This document shows, piece after piece, positions 658 to 63,665 of a stretch of 64,000 bases of DNA. The stretch lies in the NCBI GenBank assembly GCA_000697055.1, contig JNDT01001313.1:1-64000 (forward strand). The letters run 5' to 3'. A program made the translations under genes and the position numbers. The notes beneath the pieces are model-generated. The model worked only from the letters and a program-made list of their open reading frames with translations. It ran no database searches and was not told the origin of the DNA. The first letter of the stretch is position 1. Each line of letters begins with the position of its first letter. This DNA comes from Saksenaea vasiformis B4078. Lineage: Eukaryota > Mucoromycota > Mucoromycetes > Mucorales > Saksenaeaceae.

Positions 658-740
658 GGTAATTTGGCCGAGTTGGTCTAAGGCGCCGCACTCAAGTTGC
701 GGTCTCGAAAGAGGCGTGAGTTCGAATCTCACAGTTACCA
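658..740 (+). tRNA. tRNA-Leu (anticodon CAA)
   Basis: A complete class II tRNA. The acceptor arm pairs GGTAATT (658-664) with AGTTACC (733-739), with one G-T wobble, and A740 is the discriminator. The anticodon stem CCGCA/TGCGG encloses the loop CTCAAGT, giving anticodon CAA, which reads the leucine codon TTG. A long variable arm, typical of tRNA-Leu, follows. The T arm is GTGAG-TTCGAAT-CTCAC. No intron interrupts the anticodon loop, unlike the budding yeast tRNA-Leu(CAA). CCA is not encoded, as expected in a eukaryote. A Pol III terminator, TTTT, lies at 742-745. Confidence 0.95.
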
Positions 741-7234: not shown

Positions 7235-10200
7235 CTAACAATATCGCTCAAGTGCATCTACTAGTTGTCGAAGAAGGAATGCAACCTCCTGCGCTGGCAA
7301 GGAATCTTTATCCTCAGCCAATGATGTAAGTAACCTGTGATTGCTGTCCGCGTCCAGTAGTCTTTTATCATTTGAGTTCCCTTGTCCAGGCAGACACTGC
7401 AAAAATGACAGAATAGCATCTGTCATATCGATCATATTTTTCTGTTGGAGGCGAACTACTTCCACCTGTTCTTCCGGGGCTAATCTTAGGTACATCGCGA
7501 TCATGTCACCATGAATTGTATTCTTCTGTCCGCCCGATAGTTGACAAAACCATGCTTGGAAATCCCGGGTGGATCCTAACAGCAGTGAAGTGGGACCGTA
7601 CGCCATGATACGTTCCTGAAGAGCTAATAAAAGCTTGTACAAGCTTTCACTAATGCGATGAATCGTTACTACGCCTCCGGCGACAGTACAACCAATAATT
7701 GGTTCAACTTGGTCCGCTGACTTGGACAGTTTTTGATCATCCTTGCGTAGGTCTGCTGTCCATGGAATCAAATGAGCCGTTAGCTTGTTCTCTCCTTGCT
7801 GAAGCATGTATTGGGTCCGTAACGACCCAAGTTTAGGCTTGATGATGATATCTGGATAATGAAACGAAAATAATTGTAACAACCGCCGTTCAAACGATTT
7901 GTCCTCTGTCGTCCAAAGTAATTGAGCTTAATGGAAAATTTTAGAACAACATTACCTGGATCATCATACAGTGCCACAATGCCTCCAGATTGACATGCTC
8001 CAACCGCTATACGGCTATTGAGCATCAATGAATGGTGTACAGTGCGAGCGACCGTATCACTACAGTCCTGTTAGGCACCGTTTCTTCAGATTTCCAGAAA
8101 CTCACCTTTTTAAGAACTCTAATTTTCTTGTTTCAGCGTTGAACCTGTAAAATGAAATAGACTCCGTCTGTGAAGTGATGCAAATGCGATCTCCAATAAC
8201 ATGAATAGAAGTAATTAAAAAGCGAAGAGATTTGCAAGCAATCTCTTCTAGCCTAAGAAAAAACATTTTAGCAAAACGTGCCGTAAAAGATGTAGCCTAC
8301 GTACTTTCCGCTGTCCGAATTTAGGCGATATAGGTATAACACGGAGCCGGCTGAAAAAAGTAACCTGTTCCTTACTTAATTAATAGATTCAAAGCTTGAA
8401 TACCCAGTCTACCCGGCAGAATGTGGACAAATAGCAAATACGCCATCTTCAAGGTTATCTTTGTTCCAAATTCGACGCAGCTCGTAGCTAGTGGCTATGC
8501 GATGGCTGTTTTTCTCAAGACGATAAAGCAAAAGAGCACCGCTATCCATCCCAGATTTTGATACTGAGTTTGGCCGGCGAAACGGCTGGGGCTTTCGTGG
8601 ATGTCCTAAACCGACACATATGTATTTGCAATGACGATCGCGGCGTGGGACATCCCATTCTGAAAGCAGTGAGATGACCGTTGATAGGACTTTTTCTTAA
8701 AGAAAAAAGCGAGCTTACCTGCTGAGGAGAGGACTCTGACGCCACTTCTTCTAAAGTTATCATCGGTACGGATTATGTTCTCCACTGCAAGCGTACTGCC
8801 GCTAATAAGTTGTTAACGATCATTCCTGAACCAAGGAAGAGACAGATTACCTAAATGTATCGATTAATCTCACCGTGTTGTTTTGTGCTGTGCCGTCAGA
8901 AGATGAGGTTATCGTAGTAACGTAGTCATTCCTGTTATCGTGCAGGACTTTGCGTGGCGTCTAATTAAATTTTTCATGAATAAAATGACAGAAGAATAGT
9001 TGAAGGATCAAACCTCGCCGAGAGTAATTTTGCGTGTGTTTGGCCGGCTGTGCTGACCAACCTCAAGAAATTGTAACTTGCAATCTTCTACCACCGCAAG
9101 CACCTTCGTATCTGACGATAGCACAAAATCTGCATCAAAGCAGACGATTGCGCTGATAGATGCGGGCTTTTGCAAGAAAACTTTTTCAATGTCAAGAGAT
9201 TCATGACGCAATTCACTGCATTCGATTCTCCAAAGTTGATCCGAGAAAACAAAGGCTGTTTCGGTGGTTTCCCCAGTAAAATGAATCGTATATGTGCCTA
9301 AATCGCAGATTACAGGAGGTTGGCATAGCAGCGGCACACATGAGGATAGTCCTTGAAAGAAGGCAGGATTGATCCGATAGCTCAGCAAGGAACCTTGTCG
9401 TAATCCAACCAGAAGATGCTGAATAGGCGCTTCGGGGTTTCCTTTGCCATTGCTCAAAACTGTTACTGAAGATGGGACAGCAAACTCTCCTACAGCAGTA
9501 GAGCCTGATGATATTGACACAATTAGATTTACCTGTATGATACTATAAACCTAATACCTAAGTTTTCCTCATGTAAAATATCAATACTTTCATGATCAGT
9601 ATTGAAAAAAAGTAGGCGTGCCGTATAAGTTCCGACCATAAGGATCGATGTATCACCGGTTCTGGCGTCATTACTTATATATATTAAGCATTTGTGTGAG
9701 CCTTTGTTTCAAAAGCATAACCTTTTCACTTACGTTCGTAAAAAATGGCCTAAGTAACTGGGTTGTGTATCAAGAAGTAGTGATGTACCGGCCTTAATAT
9801 AGAGTGCGGGACTAAAGCGATGCCTGAGCATTCAATCGCAACGTTAACCACTTACCTTGGCAAACTACCTTGGATATCCAAAATATGAATTTGATATATT
9901 TGACCGTCAGACACGCATATGGCTAATCTATAGGCACTTTCTGCGATATTCCAGATGGTAGCAAATATAATGATGCACGATTCCGGTAGGTTAAGTTGCG
10001 TAACTTTCCATTCTAAAGTGTTTCCTAGATCAAAGGGCTTAGTACGAGGCAGATACTAGGGGAAGAAATATACCAAGGATACTATCGATTATAATTAACC
10101 CATATGCATGTACTTGGAGCAGATGTCGTCGCCCAGTTGTGTCGATAATGGAGTCGACCATTATCGTATTTCTGTTGGATACTATGCCGATAGAATCTGT

Positions 10201-54397: not shown

Positions 54398-55896
54398 ATG
54401 GCGGATGACATGGATGGCTACCAAACGCCAGACAATGTGATAGAAACACCCACGGTACCTTTGTCGGCCTACGTTGATTACACGCCACGACGGACATTCG
54501 CAGCAAATCGGCCTGATCCTTTTCTACAAGCTCATCCAAACAATGTTCCCTTGTCACGACAGAGTCGTGCGTATTACTTTCACCAGTTAGCGCAGCAAGC
54601 TGCCGACGAAGCCAATGAAGAGTATTCAAAACCAACTAGCTATATGGATTCACCAGTCGTTCGACGATATCTCGGCGTCAGTAGCACTGTTGTACCTATC
54701 ACCCCTCAAAAATCGCCTTCCAGGCCCACCTTAGAAAGAGCACCTCTAAAGTACAGAATTTTACTTTCTAACAGGAAAATGGCTCACACTTAATTATAGG
54801 AAGCGACAGGAATGGTGCATCGATGATTTTGACGTGGGAAAGCATTTAGGAACTGGTAAATTCGGCACGGTTTATCTTGCTCAGGAGAAAGCGAGTCAAC
54901 AAATAGTGGCACTGAAAATACTGGAGAAGACAGAGATTATCAACGCAAAAGTAGTGGCCTTTGTTAAGAGAGAAATCGAAATACAGAGCCATCTCAGGTA
55001 CATGAAGCAGTATGCAGAAGCAATTACCATCTAACGTTCATACGTACCTCAAGGCATCCTAATGTTCTTGGATTATTTGGTTATTTCCACGATGAGAGGC
55101 ATGTGTATATGGTTCTTGAATATGCTGGGCAAGGGGAGCTGTACTCTTTGTTGAGAGCTCGAGGGCGGCTTTCAGAACGAACAGCAGCACTTGTAAGTTC
55201 TGGCTTGTTGAAAACGTATTCCATGTGGTTCTTATACTGCATTAGTACATCACACAAATTACGAGAGCTCTACGCTATATTCATAAGCTGGGTGTCATCC
55301 ATAGAGACCTTAAACCCGAAAATGGTAACTTATGCTGTATGTTGTATGTGCCTCTAACAACTTGCATTAATCAGTGCTTGTTGGTGATGATGGAAAGCTT
55401 AAATTATCGGATTTCGGATGGTCAGTTTATGATCCAAAACCACGGTAAGTCGGATATGGAGCATCCGTCGACATTTATTTAGACATAAATGTAGTCGCCG
55501 GACGTTCTGTGGTACGCTGGATTATCTGCCACCCGAGATGATTGAAAATAATACGCATGATCAAAGCGTCGATCTGTGGGCGTTGGGAGTCATGTGCTAT
55601 GAAATGCTAGTCGGTACGCCGCCCTTTGAAGATTTGGAAGGGTACGCAGAGACCTACAACAAGATAAGACATGTAGATTATCAATTTCCGGCTTACTTAA
55701 GTGAAGAAGCCAAAGACTTCATATCTAAGGTAAAAGGAAAAAGATCCAAGAAATCTGACGATCACTTAACACTGTATCGCCGCTCTAGCTGCTACAACGC
55801 AATCCCAAAGAGCGCTTACGATTGAGCGAAATTGGGACGCATCCCTGGACTACAAAATACCAGAGGGGGAGGGGGAATTTTTGGGCCAAGCCCTGA
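54398..55896 (+). CDS. Aurora kinase (Ipl1/Ark1 type)
   Basis: A mitotic Ser/Thr kinase of the chromosomal passenger complex. Seven exons, 54398-54750, 54800-54997, 55054-55192, 55246-55324, 55375-55444, 55495-55729 and 55789-55896, total 1182 nt (393 aa). The N-terminal ~120 residues are disordered and proline- and serine-rich. The kinase domain starts [20 protein letters not shown]. The lysine is in ALKILEK, the catalytic loop is [10 protein letters not shown], the DFG motif is KLSDFGWSV, and the Aurora-specific activation segment is [16 protein letters not shown]. The domain ends [13 protein letters not shown]. The C-terminus, [13 protein letters not shown], is short and comes from a G-rich stretch, possibly a replaced tail. 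Confidence 0.95.
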
Positions 55897-56232
55897 CTCA
55901 GACCTGAGACTTGCTGAATTCAAGCGGAGTGAGACTCGGAGGCAAATACCCTCTGGAAGAAAAATTTTAATATCCGCTGCTGTGCACTCTGATCCATGCA
56001 CCCAAAATGCATAGATCAGCAACGTAAGAGCTGTTAGTTTCTTTATGAACCTATAAAAAAGCGCGTAAAATGACCTTATATCGTAAGATAATATATTTTA
56101 GACAAGTTTCTTTTGGAAAATAGAGTAATTCTACGACCTCTGTATTAATAGTTACTAAATTTCATACCTGAAAGGTTTCTTATGGCATTGCTTGTTATAT
56201 TGTTACCAAATAAGATATGTGGATACATAGCT
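55897..56232. other. intergenic region downstream of Aurora kinase
   Basis: No gene recognised. AT-rich after 56040. Confidence 0.55.
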
Positions 56233-56600
56233 TTACGGACTAATAGAGTCTTTCAATGTTTTTCTAAGCTTATCAAGGGATATGCCCATCTCTACTCGTT
56301 TTTGCTCCAATCTTCTGACTGCTTCTTCGCAAGAAGTACGCTCCCTCCTGGCTGTTTCTTCAATAACCTTGTAGAGCTTATTTCTTCTGCTGAAAAAGCG
56401 AGACAATTTTCGATCCTTTCTCCAAGAAGTTCCATATCTTGTTCCTATGGACTCTGCGGAAGGATTCCAGACAAGCAAACATTGTTCCCTCTTTCCAGAT
56501 ATATGTTACAGGTGCAATCAATCTGTTGAGCCGGTATATAGGTGGAATCAGTGTTGGAGGCAGATTAGAGACATTGTGGACTGGCCGATGGCAGAACCAC
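56233..56600 (-). pseudogene. GCR1_C-domain protein fragment, frameshifted
   Basis: The frame 56478-56233 reads RYGTSWRKDRKLSRFFSRR, then KLYKVIEETA and a LEQKR-SLDKLRK-type end. This is the pattern of the GCR1_C DNA-binding domain (activator of glycolytic enzymes), which also occurs in fungal mobile-element proteins. The preceding piece, YRLNRLIAPVTYIWKEG, is in another frame just upstream (about 56565-56490), so one base shift separates the two halves of the domain. No start or complete gene is present. It lies directly upstream of the large Fanzor-like gene. Confidence 0.5.
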
Positions 56601-57290
56601 AGATATTAAAGGCGTTGTGGTCTGCATTCTACCTTAAACCCGCGTCACCCACAGTGTAGAGATCCACAAAGTTCTGGTTCATCCTCTGAAGTTCAGATGT
56701 ATTGAAATACTAAATTGCAAGCAGTATATGTAAGTTATGCTGTGACCATAGGCCAATCGATAGAGAGATAGGGCCGGAAGTACGTCGACTTTTGGATAGT
56801 TCTTCATCCAGTTCTTCGTTTTGTGAGTTATAGCAGTTATTTTGATCCATAGAATACGATAAACACAATGGTTACTGAGTGGTATTGCATAATGTACATA
56901 TTGTATTTTGCTTTGTAATCTATCTGTAGATGTCATTTTCGTTCTGCCCTTTATTCCTTTACTGACCTGAAGCTAATTACCTCTTGGTGCTCTGTTGATG
57001 GTCTTATCTCAGAAACATATGTGCAAAAATATCTGCAAATACACTACTTATTAGCGGTATATTGTTTAACATTTACGGGCAGCCGCCTGACTGAACTTTG
57101 AACAGGTAACAGTATCAAAGATTATGTCAAGGCCCACAGGACCGTTGAAATTTTGAAAGAAAAAAAAAAGACCGTCTACTGACAACTTTTCTTCTCTTTA
57201 TCTCACATACATCCCCAATTTTTACAGAGTGAGACGTTGTAGAGCGATATCTGCAGAAACCTACTAACAGACGTATTCTGTTTATTTAGC
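56601..57290. other. upstream region of the large Fanzor-like gene
   Basis: About 700 bp. Contains a poly-A run (57161-57170) and pyrimidine-rich DNA before the ATG, but no clear TATA box or gene. I found no obvious terminal inverted repeat matching the 61.3-62.3 kb side. Confidence 0.45.
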
Positions 57291-60200
57291 ATGACTGTAC
57301 CACTAGCCCAGTTACGCTTGAAGCGCAAAAGGAAGAGGACGGATGAATCAGGGATATCAGTAGAACAAGCCCCTCAAGCCTTGTACAGTGTCTTCCACGA
57401 CCAACTGAAAGTGATCGTCCTAAAAAACCTTGAAGATAAACCTAAAAAAAAGTCTACAAAAAGAACACGTCAGGAGTCAAAAGAAAAGAAGCAAGAAAAA
57501 CAGAGGAAAAAGTTGCAAGAGCTACGAGAGAGTCTGGAGAAGGCAGATCGCGTTCCAAGGTCATCGTTCGAACAAGCCGATGATATGCTCAATGCAGAAC
57601 AAGGGACTACCAGGAAGACACTCGCTTCGGAATATCCTGGGTCAACGCAGATTGGGGCTCTGGGGCAAAAGTATGCCATCGCGAATTTTGATGATGCTGT
57701 CGAAAAAGCACAGAAAGAAATTGAAGAAAGAGTGCAGACAAAAGAACAAGGCTGCAGCACAGATACCGCTGAAAACGACGAAAGCGAAGACGAAAAGGAC
57801 ACAATCCGTACATGTTCGGTTCGACTACCTGCAATCTTACGAGATGATCTAGATGATGAAATGAGACAAATGTTTCTCGACACCATAACTGTCACATCCG
57901 AACAAGCTACGGACTACATTGCTGAGCTTGGGACAGCAGTACATGCAACTATGCTAGAATACGCTGCTAGTACCATCATATTGGATCCACGTTCAAAGCA
58001 AGCTCATTATCAGCAAGACAGTCCAAATATGTTTAACATTTTGGAGGCTATTCCCAAAGGATCAGTCCGCGATCCAGAAGCTCTGAACTCAAATTGGACA
58101 ATACCAGTGGCGCCACTGCCTGAGAATATGTCAAGTTATCTGAAAGCTTTGCCACGGAAGAGCAATGATGAATTCATCAATCTGTTCAGCGAAGCCCACT
58201 TGCAATTCATCCATTCAAGCTGTTTCGGAAGACAGAGTTATAAAGCTAGTGAGAAAACTCTCTGGTCTGCGCTGCATCACCCAATGTTGAAAGATTTACC
58301 AAACCCACCTGCCGGTTTAAGCACCACGATGCATTTTCAGCTGAAGCAAAATGCCACCAATCTACAAAACATGTGGGCAGGCGGTTTGTTCCATAAATCG
58401 GTGAACCACCTGCTGCGGATCCTTCTTAAAATAAATCTTGCCCCTGAGCGAGAACAACAAGTCCGTCAGATTGCCGAGAAAAAGGCCAAAGAGAAAGAGA
58501 AACAGCAGGAGGAGAGTACCAAAGCGAGGAAAAGGAAGAAGGAATGGCATCGGCGTCAGATCAAAGGACGAATTAAACAAGAACACAAGAATTTAAGACG
58601 CCCGAAGAAACGGCTGGGGGTGGAATCGGACGAAGATCAAAGGATTAAGCTATTGCGACGTGAAAAGTCATGCACGGATGCGATTACAAGACTGCAATCA
58701 CGCACAAGCGAGGAATACATGCCTAAGAAAGGTGAAAATCCACAGTCTCGGAAGAATGAAGATGTGAGCGCAATATCCGATGTCTTCGACATATTAACGG
58801 AAAGCACATTACGTAGCCTAAATGTGATGTAACCGAGATGGATAGCCCTGTGGATATAAGTGGGGTAGACGATGAAGAGATAGATGAGGCAATTGAGATG
58901 GTAATCGAAGAGATACAAGAGGAATTAGAAGTAGTTCAGGCGAATGACGCGAAGAAGGAGCCCAGTAGGAGAAAATTAATGCGTATTCAAGCTATTGCGA
59001 AGAAACTGTTACTATCAGCAGCTATTGAGGGAAAAGTGAAAGCCACTGATGTCTTGGGGATATGGAACGACGACAACGAGCTCCAGAAGGTCGAGATAGA
59101 TACGGTTGTGCAGATTACGAACGCGCTAAGGCCGTATACACCGAAAGGTCGGTCAAGCACTGCAATTGCTTTGCGTGTTCGATTTGCTTTGTTGTCGAAT
59201 ACCATTTTCCGTGCTACTGGGTACAGCAAATTCACTGCTAACATTTGCCCAGCGATGAGCCCTGCCTCAATCCATGCCCTGCCCCTCGATGCGGCGTCCA
59301 TGTATGAACTCTTCGGTTCGAGTTCGGCAAAATTTGATTTGTACAAAGAAGACGGAAGCGCGATTGTAAGTATCCGACAAGCTCGAATGAACAAAGCTGC
59401 CGTAATCGGTTCCTTCTTTGATCAAGACGAAATCACCCGTATTTGCAACGCTCCCGGTTTGGAACCACGGTGGCAAGTAACTGTTACGCCCCATCAGATG
59501 GCGGTCATTGATGGGAATATTCGAAAAGGCAGGATCATAAGTGTATCTAACTATGAGGAAAGAAGGAAGAACGCAAAAGGGAAGAGTACGGATGCGGGGA
59601 ACAGCTTCTTTGAGAATGGATCAAATATCGATATTTCCACTGTTACAACGTCACTGGAGGACGCGAAGTATAAGGTGAAAGCTCTGGAATCGGCAGAAAG
59701 GGAATCAAAAAAGGCTTTACAGCAGGCAGAAAATGTTGTCCAAAATCGGACAGAAGAGCATCGACAGAGAAAAAACGCTGTCCAAAGGAAAATCTGGGAC
59801 AAGCGTAAGCGTGACAAAATGAATATCAGCGATCCGCGGGCGAAGGAAAAGCAGAGCGAGAGCTACAAAGACTTGAAGACGTCGAAATTGGAGCGCGCAA
59901 AGAAACAACATAATTTATGCAAGATACGGTCGGAACTGGCAGATCGACGAAGACGGCGATATGTATTTCAGAAGGTAACTGAAGGATATCGTATGCACCA
60001 GTCAATCAACCGAATTAAATCAACCTATAGCAGCTGGATATTCTCAAGAAGCAAAAGGGCAAGGAAAAGGAATCAGAGAGAGATGATGAAAAGGAGGAGG
60101 TAAAGATGTGTAAGGTTACAAGTTGGAATAGTCCAGGTTGCGAAGCCAGTACACAGTTCCTTGACATTACAGAGCTGGATCAGCAAGTCAGCCAGGATCA

Positions 60201-61266
60201 CAGGAAAGCTATTACCTTTGGTGGGACGGATTATGGGTTGAGGGTTCTTTCGACAACTGTCCCTCTTACAATGGAACGCGCTCGCCTTCACTTCAACTTA
60301 CACAACCGCCAATTGGACGATACACAAATACCGGTATCCATTCCTGAAGAAATGTGCAAACTTCCCAAACCAACGCGAATCACGGCAGGGTATCTGGAAG
60401 AGAAAACCTTTTCCAGGAAGTTTCGCAAAAAAAGAGAAAGGAGGAAAACGGTACAGTAATGGTAGTCAGTGGATTCAGGGTTCTCACTTCATACTAGGAC
60501 GACTTGACGGTTAAGAGCGCAGAAAAACACTTAGAAGAAAGTTCATCGGCTTTAGCAATTACTATAGAACAAGTTTTAGAGTCGCAAGAGGTGCTATCCT
60601 TTTTTTTTCTTCCACCTCTAATTCTTCAATACCTATTAGGTGAAAAGAAACTGCCGAAAACAACTGCGATCGTTTTATCACTCAAATCACGCTCACCATG
60701 AAAAACGTACTCAGTCACTGGTTACTAGTCGCGTTTATGATCAGATTGCTGCGCAGGAGCGAAGCTTCGTCAGGACAGCTGCCAACACTAACAAGGATGG
60801 TGCACAAAATATTGTGCCCATCATGGCCATAGGAACTCAGGGCACCGGTGTCGGTTCTCGATTGAAGGGTCATATTAGACGTGGAGGAGCATGGTTGCGT
60901 AGACGACATCGCCTTTATGTACCAGTGTCAATGACGAACGAGCATCGAAGTTCTCAGTTATGTGTCTACTGTTTTGGAAGAGTGGAAAGGGCCAAAGCTA
61001 GGCGAAAGAAGAAGGGAGAATGGAAGACAGTGAGAGTAAACGGTGCCTCTCAGTGCGTGAATCCGAGTTGCACAGCATACCAGTCAGGCCATACTACACA
61101 AAATAGAGACGTTCAAGCAGCTCTTGCAATAGGTCTGGCATGCGCAAGCAACGTCCTGTCCGTAGATAGAAAGACGCTTGCACCTTTCGACCCCAGCAAT
61201 TTCTCGGCTGGAAGACCATTCATCCCGGGGCAGCCAATTATCGGTAAATTACCGTCGACTGTATGA
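57291..61266 (+). CDS. very large Fanzor-like RuvC nuclease, 1271 aa by splice model
   Basis: Appears as ORFs 57291-58832, 58838-60103, 60106-60459, 60504-60701 and 60640-61266. Four introns unite them in phase: 58829-58860 (32 nt), 60100-60131 (32 nt), 60451-60497 (47 nt) and 60591-60639 (49 nt). The total is 3816 nt. The N-terminal ~900 residues are mostly charged helices with an early nuclear-localisation-like RLKRKRKRTDE and two coiled-coil stretches; I recognise no other domain. The C-terminal 350 carry a Fanzor/TnpB layout: RuvC-I ITFGGTDYGLRVLS (about residue 960), IVPIMAIGTQGTG, RuvC-II NEHRSSQLCVYC (about 1165), a second cysteine pair CVNPSC, then RuvC-III NRDVQAALAIG (about 1221). 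All three acidic residues remain. Known Fanzors are mostly 400-700 aa. An intact relative with a novel N-terminus is my inference. Confidence 0.72.
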
Positions 61267-62340
61267 CATATATACACTAATATTTTGCACCCATAATTTA
61301 AAGTGCGTGACCTCTCCATGGAAGCTCCGCGAAGAGTAAGTACTGCCTCTGCCTTTGCGATAATAACACCTCCTACCAAACGAAGGTTGAGTGGATCGGG
61401 ACCTGTTGCCATGACAGGAGTTATCGTGAATTCTGGATCAGGTAAGAGGATCAAATACAGTATTACAGTTTTCTGACTTTTCTGGGTCATAGATGAGACC
61501 TAGGGTTCAGATACCAGATGAAATAGGCATAAGCCTCTCCGTACATAATATGCTCGCATGATCACATTTTTTACGTATCTTTTTTACATTATTAAGGCTG
61601 CAAACGCTGCCTATGGAGCACGCGCCTTCCGATAGAGTTCGGTCCTCTGGAAGAATACATTTACAACGTTTAACTGTTCAGGGTGGCTCACTCCAGTAAT
61701 AAATGACGTTACCAAATATTGTGGCATTCAAAAGATGGATCCACATATCAAAGGATGATCATGATGGCGCGTAGCTCTAACATATGTATTACATCAACTA
61801 TCAACTTTATCTAAAAACCGTACTCGTTGGACTGTCTGGCATTGATCTATCGTAATACTATCGTTCGCTATAATTATGAATTGAGGACACCATGGTCGAC
61901 AAAATCATTGTTGTAAAAGGCTGTTGCGCATGCCTGGCCGCGTACCGTCTACCCCTGTACCAGGTTGATATGCACGCAAACACGCTAAACATAGCGATAC
62001 CATGATTGAGTCTTACTATAATATGAACCTAGATTAAGCTATATTGTGATTGTACCATACGATTGTCTTTTTATTCTTCATTCAAATAGCTGATCGTTGG
62101 ATGGTGATGCCATTGATGATGTCGATTCAGCTGAGCAGGATGTTTCAATCCCTTTAAATCATAATCCCTGATGAACTGCAGAGGCATCTCACTGTTATAG
62201 CAAAATCATTACGCGTTGGTCATTCGTGAAGTCGGCTTTGCTATCCTAATACACGAAGTTTATAGTTCTTGCAAATACAAAATATGCGTGGAGAAGTGGG
62301 AATTACGGCGGAGAATGGAAGGGTAAACGGAAAGGATAAT
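61267..62340. other. 3' flank of the large Fanzor-like gene
   Basis: No recognised gene. A 52-codon ORF at 61318-61476 (MEAPRRVSTASAFAIITPP) is of unknown value. If this gene belongs to an OMEGA-type element, the guide RNA would most likely be encoded near here; I see no hairpin strong enough to name. Confidence 0.45.
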
Positions 62341-63665
62341 TTACATGATGATTTGAGGTTCTGTGATGTTGGAGGAGATACCTTTATGAGGGAGAATCGA
62401 GCCACCATTGACATAGATTTCATCATTGATTGTCACGTCTTCACCTAGCACGGAGCAACCTTCCAGCCGTGACCAACGGCCGACAGATGAGTGCCAACCC
62501 ACGATACTCGAGTGAACCCAAGCAAAGTCTTTCACCTTGGCGCCCTCAAGGATCACACAACGTTGTAGACGTACACCATCACCGATGACTGCATTGGGGC
62601 CGATCACAACATTTGGACCAATACGGCAGTTTCGGCCTACCTTTGCTGTAGGATGAACAAGAACATTACCCTTGTAGACGTACTCCGACCCTGGGTTGGC
62701 CAGCTCTTGGGGATTCTTCTTGGCCAGGTGCGACAAGTACAGACAGGTACCGGTCAAAAAATCTTTGGGTTGACCCACGTCCATCCAAAATCCTTCCAGG
62801 TCGAATGTGTGTAGCTGGCCGTCTTGTGCTACATGTGGGAAGACTTCCTTCTCAATTGACGTTGGTTTCAACTACAGCAAGAATTTTTGTTTTGTCAGGA
62901 TATGCAGGTTGGCGCGCGACACGGTGTATTACCTCGATGCGGTCTAGAATAGAAGGGCTCAAAATGTAAATACCAGCGTTGATCTTGTTGCTGATGAATT
63001 CCTTGGGTTTTTCAACGAAACGTTCCACTTGGGAAGAAGCTGGCTTGTTGACGATAACGCCGTATTTGGAAGGATCGTCGACCTTTGTAACCTGCAACAC
63101 GTGTCAAATCACTTCTTGCTCCACTGTTGCCTCTTTGGTTATAACTTACCACGATAGTTCCTTCTTGTCCGTGGCCCAAGTGGAAATCTCTGAGTTGCTC
63201 AAAGGGATAATCACAGATAATATCACTGTTCAAAACAAAGAACGGGCTATCGTCCTTGCCCAAAATTTCTCTTGCTAACGCGAGGGGTCCTGCGGTACCA
63301 AGTGGTTCTGTTTCCACAGAAAAAGTGATCTTGACGTTGTATTCTTTTTCGTATTCCTTTAGCGCAGCCACCATGATCTCAGGACGATAGTTCACAGCCA
63401 ACACGATATCTGTCACTCCAGCCTGAGATTTTTCTTTTATCAGTAAATCACGTATCTCCATCGTCTTCTTTTCTATTTTTTACCTTGGCTAAACCTTCGA
63501 TCTGATGAAGGATCATAGGCCTGTTGGCGAACTCAACCAACGGTTTGGGAAGTGTGAGTGTAAGGGGTCTGAGACGGGTTCCGAAACCTGAAGGAAGATG
63601 TCAGGGACTCTCCAGAATGTAACACTGCAATAGAATTTACCACCAACAAGAATAAGTGCTTTCAT
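62341..63665 (-). CDS. PSA1: mannose-1-phosphate guanylyltransferase (GDP-mannose pyrophosphorylase)
   Basis: Makes GDP-mannose from mannose-1-phosphate and GTP, the donor for N- and O-mannosylation and the precursor of GDP-fucose. Exon 1 is ATG-AAAGCACTTATTCTTG up to 63641. It splices to [19 protein letters not shown], completing the [10 protein letters not shown] nucleotide-binding signature. Later exons give [57 protein letters not shown] and [12 protein letters not shown]. The C-terminus is a left-handed beta-helix of hexapeptide repeats ([20 protein letters not shown]), ending [15 protein letters not shown]. The usual single-gene length and all motifs are present. Five exons separated by short introns. 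Confidence 0.96.

Follow-up and report, generated by a model that had tools for sequence, protein, structure and literature searches.

A 64,000-nucleotide stretch of the Saksenaea vasiformis B4078 genome (contig JNDT01001313.1, C160 in our searches; hereafter, the window) contains a 5.65-kb CryptonF-type element (55861–61514, + strand) with a gene for a very large Fanzor-like RuvC protein. Fanzors are RNA-guided, DNA-cutting nucleases of eukaryotes with kinship to TnpB. Comparison with copies and relatives, together with structure prediction, indicates that this transposon probably carries a giant Fanzor1-type nuclease gene whose guide scaffold would come from the end of its own spliced transcript. 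The evidence that leads to this reading consists of the gene structure, the element ends, the catalytic motifs, a Fanzor-like predicted fold, purifying selection and the terminal hairpins. An initial annotation of the window had noticed consecutive open reading frames (ORFs) at 57291–61266 and joined them by splicing into one protein; the multicopy carrier of the gene had not been recognised.

Gene structure and reading frame

The genome (38.7 Mb in 666 contigs) was searched with the last exon of the gene, which gave at least 149 matches (among the best 150 of 183 candidates scored; several may share one copy). Besides the window, the matches listed included 13 near-complete last-exon copies with 87–93% identity, a copy on contig C139 with 75%, some close partial pieces and a ladder of matches down to 24% identity. 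We compared the 13 close copies (L031–L043), the C139 copy (L044) and six loci (L045–L050) that represent more distant families.

The consecutive ORFs at 57291–61266 are present, and introns join them into one long protein. Canonical intron ends were counted across the aligned copy rows, with the window included and the internally deleted L033 omitted upstream of 60362. Among the four introns first proposed, intron 3 (60451–60497, 47 nt) and intron 4 (60591–60639, 49 nt) held, showing GT-AG ends in 14/14 and 13/14 rows and lengths of 45–47 and 47–52 nt, respectively. Both 32-nt introns failed: GT-AG ends at 58829–58860 were found in 6/12 rows, and those at 60100–60131 in 1/13, that row being the window itself. 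The latter stretch is conserved coding sequence (EEVKMCKVTSW.PGCEAS) in the distant families, as it is in the annotated protein P0001 of Apophysomyces (described below). The better joins are made by a 74-nt intron 1 (58764–58837, GTGAGC...CCGAG; GT-AG in 12/12 rows) and a 56-nt intron 2 (59975–60030, GTAACT...CTATAG; 12/13 rows). The four revised introns are all in phase 0, and the reading up to the window copy's stop is therefore 1249 codons, not 1271. At intron 2, the exon-2 homology of the distant families drops off between QK and V, and the independent gene model of P0001 has the same join; at intron 1, that model is off by a few residues. A frameshift or operon reading of the ORF joins was ruled out, because they are accounted for by GT-AG introns, three of the four varying in length.

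In other copies, the whole gene has seven introns, three of them small ones beyond the first four. Exon 1 (57291–58763), with which P0001 aligns from its residue 1, encodes an N-terminal basic tail and the first part of the predicted WED/REC lobe, while exon 2 (58838–59974) encodes the rest of this lobe and a coiled-coil hairpin. Exon 3 (60031–60450) carries RuvC-I with GTDYG (D937 in the 1249-aa reading); exon 4 spans 60498–60590; and exon 5 (60640–61243) carries the RuvC-II glutamate E1142, the C4 zinc ribbon and the NRD of RuvC-III. Near the end of exon 5, at about 61.2 kb and downstream of the catalytic motifs, the window copy leaves the frame shared by the other copies, some of which are open through this stretch, and its own tail consequently differs. 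Thus, the window copy retains the catalytic motifs, but its frame is broken near the 3' end. The exon 6 position (61303–61335) is in frame in other copies, and its acceptor is not intact in the window copy. Exon 7 (61386–61441) encodes ..GPVAMTGVIVNSGS, comparable to the GPVAMTGVI near the end of P0001. It is followed by the last intron, intron 7 (61442–61492; GT-AG in 12/13 rows, not in L020), and by exon 8 (61493–61503). All these features lie on the + strand.

The protein had been thought to end at 61266. In 9 of the 12 other aligned copies, however, the frame passes the three further introns and ends in ...GPVAMTGVIVNSGSDEI-stop or variants of it, the stop being a TAG at 61501–61503, 11 nt before the element end (the exceptions are L032, L020 and L024; L031, among the nine, lacks the GT of intron 5). 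The conserved 3' region is thus not a plain untranslated region, as it contains three small exons. Taken as a whole, the first gene model, with 32-nt introns, an end at 61266 and an unrelated N-terminal module, is scarcely credible: GT and AG do stand at those positions in the window copy, but the copy comparison contradicts the model in its intron ends, in coding conservation, at the P0001 join, at the downstream stop and in the Fanzor-like N-lobe.

The ratios of non-synonymous to synonymous substitution rates (dN/dS) between the window and 12 copies (L033 omitted) ranged from 0.14 to 0.30, and third codon positions were about two to four times more variable than first and second positions in exons 1, 2, 3 and 5. 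Counts of frame-changing indels from this comparison were an alignment artefact and were not used. Judged by these substitution patterns, the gene is under purifying selection.

Catalytic motifs, predicted fold and relatives

GTDYG, TNEHRSS, the C4 zinc ribbon and NRDVQAA are present as first noted and mostly conserved in other families. The Fanzor/TnpB motif of Bao & Jurka, D-X(125,275)-[TS][TS]-X-X-[C4]-X(5,50)-RD, appears in the window as D-X207-SS-QL-C4-X11-RD, with a corresponding spacing of X207 in P0001 and X229 in P0007, a Mortierella relative. E1142 sits six residues before the first zinc-finger cysteine, and a glutamate occupies this position in 19/20 RuvC-II rows (seven exon-1 rows misaligned under RuvC-II were excluded). 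This agrees with the published fingerprint of Fanzors, which combines a RuvC-II glutamate at this distance from the zinc finger with a near-exclusive DPG at RuvC-I (PMC10711439). At RuvC-I, TDYG was found in 19/19 rows as well as in P0006 and P0007, instead of the Fanzor-typical DPG; the gene thus departs from the fingerprint used for recognising Fanzors. The string TDG, which in Fanzor1 is a motif of the WED part, is absent from the window reading, which has IDG at residue 715, and the TDG of P0001 (residue 1101) lies after RuvC-I.

Searches of the protein against Pfam, NCBIfam and PHROGs profiles returned nothing useful, the zinc-ribbon profile PF07282 staying below its cut-off (best E 0.022, 15.3 bits vs 26.3), and a sequence search of PDB detected no similarity to Fanzors. 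The N-terminal ~900 residues had been described as matching nothing. When this lobe was modelled on its own, Fanzors took all of the first six places among the re-aligned PDB matches, and it aligned best with the WED/REC lobes of three solved Fanzors; the Foldseek ranking by itself was uninformative, being topped by coiled coils and axonemal proteins. In the predicted structure, therefore, the N-terminus is no foreign module but a Fanzor1 WED/REC lobe of enlarged size, large coiled-coil additions are present, and the whole protein has a Fanzor-like fold. The earlier suggestion of a distinct lineage with an added module accordingly stands as to the lineage and falls as to the addition.

Displaced-glutamate TnpBs are compact and prokaryotic, and are not known to have such an enlarged REC lobe. 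An independent entry of a separate TnpB lineage into fungi, with a mere resemblance to Fanzor1, is quite improbable in our view; it would account for the lack of detectable sequence similarity to Fanzors and for the combination of D-hydrophobic-G with a displaced glutamate, which is the fingerprint of TnpBs outside the Fanzor clade (PMC10711439). It is likewise improbable that the protein is Fanzor-derived and no longer uses a guide RNA, and that it now binds or nicks DNA on behalf of the Crypton element or is a passenger with a different role. DYG in place of DPG in every row and the large coiled-coil additions would suit such a loss, but the D-E-D motifs and the zinc ribbon are mostly retained under purifying selection, and a conserved two-hairpin end adjoins the element boundary. 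Under the preferred reading, a Fanzor1-type nuclease, RNA guidance of the protein is likely.

The initial annotation had called for a search for full-length homologues in Mucoromycota, and our searches yielded a full-length relative, the annotated P0001 of Apophysomyces ossiformis (1285 aa, 65% identity, 99% coverage). Two of the searches scored only the best ~8000 candidates; in a third, queried with the RuvC half of P0001, that protein was the sole match. The other homologues are P0004 of Apophysomyces (partial, 73% identical to L049), P0002, P0003, P0006 and P0007 of Mortierella, and P0005, a JGI cluster. P0007 (1285 aa) has the complete set of DYG, displaced glutamate, C4 and RD; P0002 and P0006 show GTDYG and end soon after it, and a pattern search found no RuvC-II in P0002–P0006. 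A distant family with the same architecture and few if any introns, about 29% identical to P0001, is represented by L049 (4496–8248), where a single tblastn match across P0001 1–1268 is interrupted by two in-frame stops, with open stretches of 849 and 401 residues. P0007, from Mortierella sp. AM989, ends in GPSGSTGVL, which resembles the GPVAMTGVI tail encoded by hairpin 1 (see below). This ending would be compatible with a possible cross-phylum conservation of the scaffold-coding tail.

The carrier element

The left flank of the element ends in ATAC and its right end reads ...GGGTTCAGATAC, the outermost bases having been set by visual inspection of the flanks. On the right, 12 of the 13 close copies, and L044 too, have blastn matches that stop at 61513–61517, whereas that of L043 stops at 61481. 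On the left, the end lies at 55873–55878 in 5/13 copies; in the remainder, a contig end cuts the element or the 5' side differs. A short-word blastn comparison of the two ends found no terminal inverted repeats (TIRs). Both ends are readable in six copies (the window, L032, L033, L036, L037 and L041): the left flank ends in TAC in five and in TGC in one, and the element ends in GATAC. ATAC-NN stands at both ends, with NN identical on the two sides in 6/6 copies. The dinucleotide is TG in four of them, which is less informative because TG is also the usual element start; CA (window) and AG (L041) are informative. In L032, nine nucleotides are common to both sides. The more distant locus L046 has its right end near 7307, earlier than its relatives L045 and L022; an internal GGTATAC with a TG after it marks this end, which would fit the use of a second end site.

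Upstream of the gene, on the – strand, the window copy keeps a GCR1_C remnant of a CryptonF tyrosine recombinase (56236–56505; domain 56296–56466, PF12550, E=2e-12). GCR1_C occurs at 28 places across the genome. Eleven close copies, counting the window, extend 5 kb or more upstream of the gene, and in 8 of them the domain lies there on the opposite strand; it is missing in the copies on C548 (internally deleted), C472 and C643, and also on C139. The C561 and C282 copies hold a longer but broken recombinase with NDC10_II and GCR1_C, one of its three pieces being below the family cut-off. The element family thus has, in decayed form, the gene for the tyrosine recombinase with GCR1_C that defines CryptonF; of this gene, the window copy keeps only GCR1_C. 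Given these GCR1_C/NDC10_II remnants, the lack of TIRs found and the short direct repeats at the ends, as in CryptonF, the carrier is, on sequence grounds, a CryptonF-type element, non-autonomous in the window copy. At another place in the genome (C604:99836–101485, + strand), an open frame of 661 aa containing NDC10_II and GCR1_C is an apparently intact CryptonF recombinase, which could act on the element in trans. Beyond the right end of the element lies a GDP-mannose pyrophosphorylase-like gene, with exons in 62344–63103 on the – strand (GMPPB_C E=1.4e-39; NTP_transferase E=8.8e-12).

Right-end hairpins, proposed mechanism and known systems

In a consensus fold of 13 right ends, exon 7 pairs with the terminal 17 nt of the element. 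For this terminal helix alone, pairing holds in 97.1% of 207 cells, compared with 95.2% in shuffles (2/500 as high), and the covariation score is 0.138 against 0.105 in shuffles (2/500). The two double-change pairs (60/500) and eight further pair types (361/500) are unremarkable compared with shuffles. Sliding the helix drops pairing to 10–48%; part of this drop reflects the derivation of the helix from the same sequences. When intron 7 is removed, the final 62 nt are predicted to form two hairpins that end at the boundary or one nucleotide before it, with z from –2.7 to –5.8 in 13/13 rows (0–3 of 200 shuffles as good). In the window, these are hairpin 1 (61402–61418, + strand), which lies in exon 7, and hairpin 2 (61422–61513, + strand), whose 5' arm (61422–61439) is in exon 7 and whose 3' arm is at 61497–61513. 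Hairpin 2 is compact only without intron 7, which lies in its loop, and ends 1 nt before the flank, the putative guide. The hairpins overlap coding sequence, so that codon constraint can mimic part of this conservation. In L045 and L022, where the end sequence is unrelated, taking out 46 or 50 nt with GT-AG ends, presumed to be an intron, gives a similar two-hairpin layout (z –1.46, 19/200; and –2.30, 1/200). If true, this would mean that selection has kept the layout.

The right-end stem was weak as a hairpin of unspliced RNA: longer unspliced ends gave z from +0.9 to –1.9 (+1.3 to –2.1 in another run). A simple terminal-stem score of unspliced ends against 300 single-base shuffles also led nowhere, the shuffle counts being 3 for the window, 0 for L032, L036 and L018, 1 for L040, 6 for L024, 10 for L020, 29 for L044, 173 for L045, 196 for L022, 213 for L046, and 32, 11, 295 and 146 for L047–L050, whose ends are merely where blast matches stop. 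Rfam had no match within the element; its sole gathering-level match in the window is a tRNA gene at 658–740 (+ strand).

Structure prediction thus supports a putative omega-RNA scaffold at the 3' end of the transcript. The SpuFz1 scaffold is described as two stems and a linker followed by the guide, and the GtFz1 omega RNA as overlapping 17 codons (PMC10432273); by analogy, the terminal two-hairpin layout here would be that published for SpuFz1. We regard it as rather unlikely, though deserving some weight, that the inverted arms are instead a DNA site of the tyrosine recombinase or an aid to splicing. The 3' arm is nearly invariant and sits at the recombination end, and tyrosine recombinases bind inverted repeats, albeit of 11–13 bp with 6–8 bp spacing (PMC3212892). 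However, the arms are tens of nucleotides apart in DNA and 6 nt apart once spliced, three pairs of the terminal helix are mostly G-U and would pair in RNA only, a second hairpin precedes the terminal one, and L045 and L022 share the layout with unrelated sequence.

Under the scaffold reading, we propose that the 3' end of the gene's spliced transcript, with its two hairpins up to the right boundary, would serve as the guide scaffold, and the flanking DNA downstream of the element as the guide. A Crypton recombinase would excise the element as a circle, leaving a clean empty site that RNA-guided homing could exploit. At this emptied site, an AAATAC left flank would be joined to the guide-matching right flank, and the nuclease, loaded with its own transcript end and flank guide, would cut it beside an AAATAC-like target-adjacent motif (TAM). 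Repair from a copy still holding the element would then put the element back. The RNA guidance, the TAM, the cutting and the benefit to the element belong to this proposed activity, as distinct from the anatomy described above.

Since the terminal stem has the last intron in its loop, splicing would both finish the reading frame and fold the scaffold. It is conceivable, with somewhat less than an even chance, that this is a splice-assembled OMEGA (obligate mobile element-guided activity) system, in which splicing of the nuclease mRNA completes the frame and folds the guide scaffold beside the flank guide, carried on Crypton elements by a giant DYG-type lineage that includes Apophysomyces and Mortierella. 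If true, a guide scaffold made by splicing would be a eukaryotic coupling of nuclease mRNA and guide RNA. As far as our searches show, what is new is the giant size, backed by gene structure, together with the DYG fingerprint and the scaffold that splicing may assemble; the literature searched, with most subscription papers and all supplements outside it, reports no spliced omega RNA and no Fanzor of >1200 aa.

Fanzor1 proteins are mostly 600–700 aa (PMC11423790) and reach ~800 aa (PMC10711439), so that the present protein has roughly double the usual length and exceeds the longest one given in the literature covered by about half. It shares with SpuFz1, PpFz1 and GtFz1, as far as their published descriptions were covered, the order of RuvC and zinc ribbon, the displaced RuvC-II glutamate, the predicted WED/REC fold and the two-stem scaffold layout at the right end, but differs in its length (~1249–1285 aa), DYG instead of DPG at RuvC-I, seven introns and a Crypton carrier. 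The displaced-glutamate, D-hydrophobic-G TnpBs have the same RuvC fingerprint (PMC10711439). CryptonF elements are described as lacking TIRs and as having a tyrosine recombinase with GCR1_C and, at their ends, short direct repeats that are in most cases 6 bp long (Kojima & Jurka 2011, PMC3212892); the present element resembles them in these respects, whereas its recombinase is decayed or mostly deleted and it carries a giant Fanzor gene. The association of Fanzor with Crypton is not new, because the MCi-2 elements of Mucor circinelloides already join a 6-kb Fanzor region to a partial Crypton transposase (Bao & Jurka 2013, PMC3627910). They are alike in this 6-kb 3' region coding for Fanzor, in a variable 5' region, in the partial transposase and in having no recognizable TIRs. 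The target site duplications of MCi-2 are 11–12 bp, ATAATTNNNN(N), and none of this type was present at our six left/right flank pairs, although ATAC followed by a dinucleotide common to both sides (in L032, 13 shared nt) is similar in kind. MCi-2 is set apart here by its description, not by its sequence, and may be close kin of the Saksenaea element.
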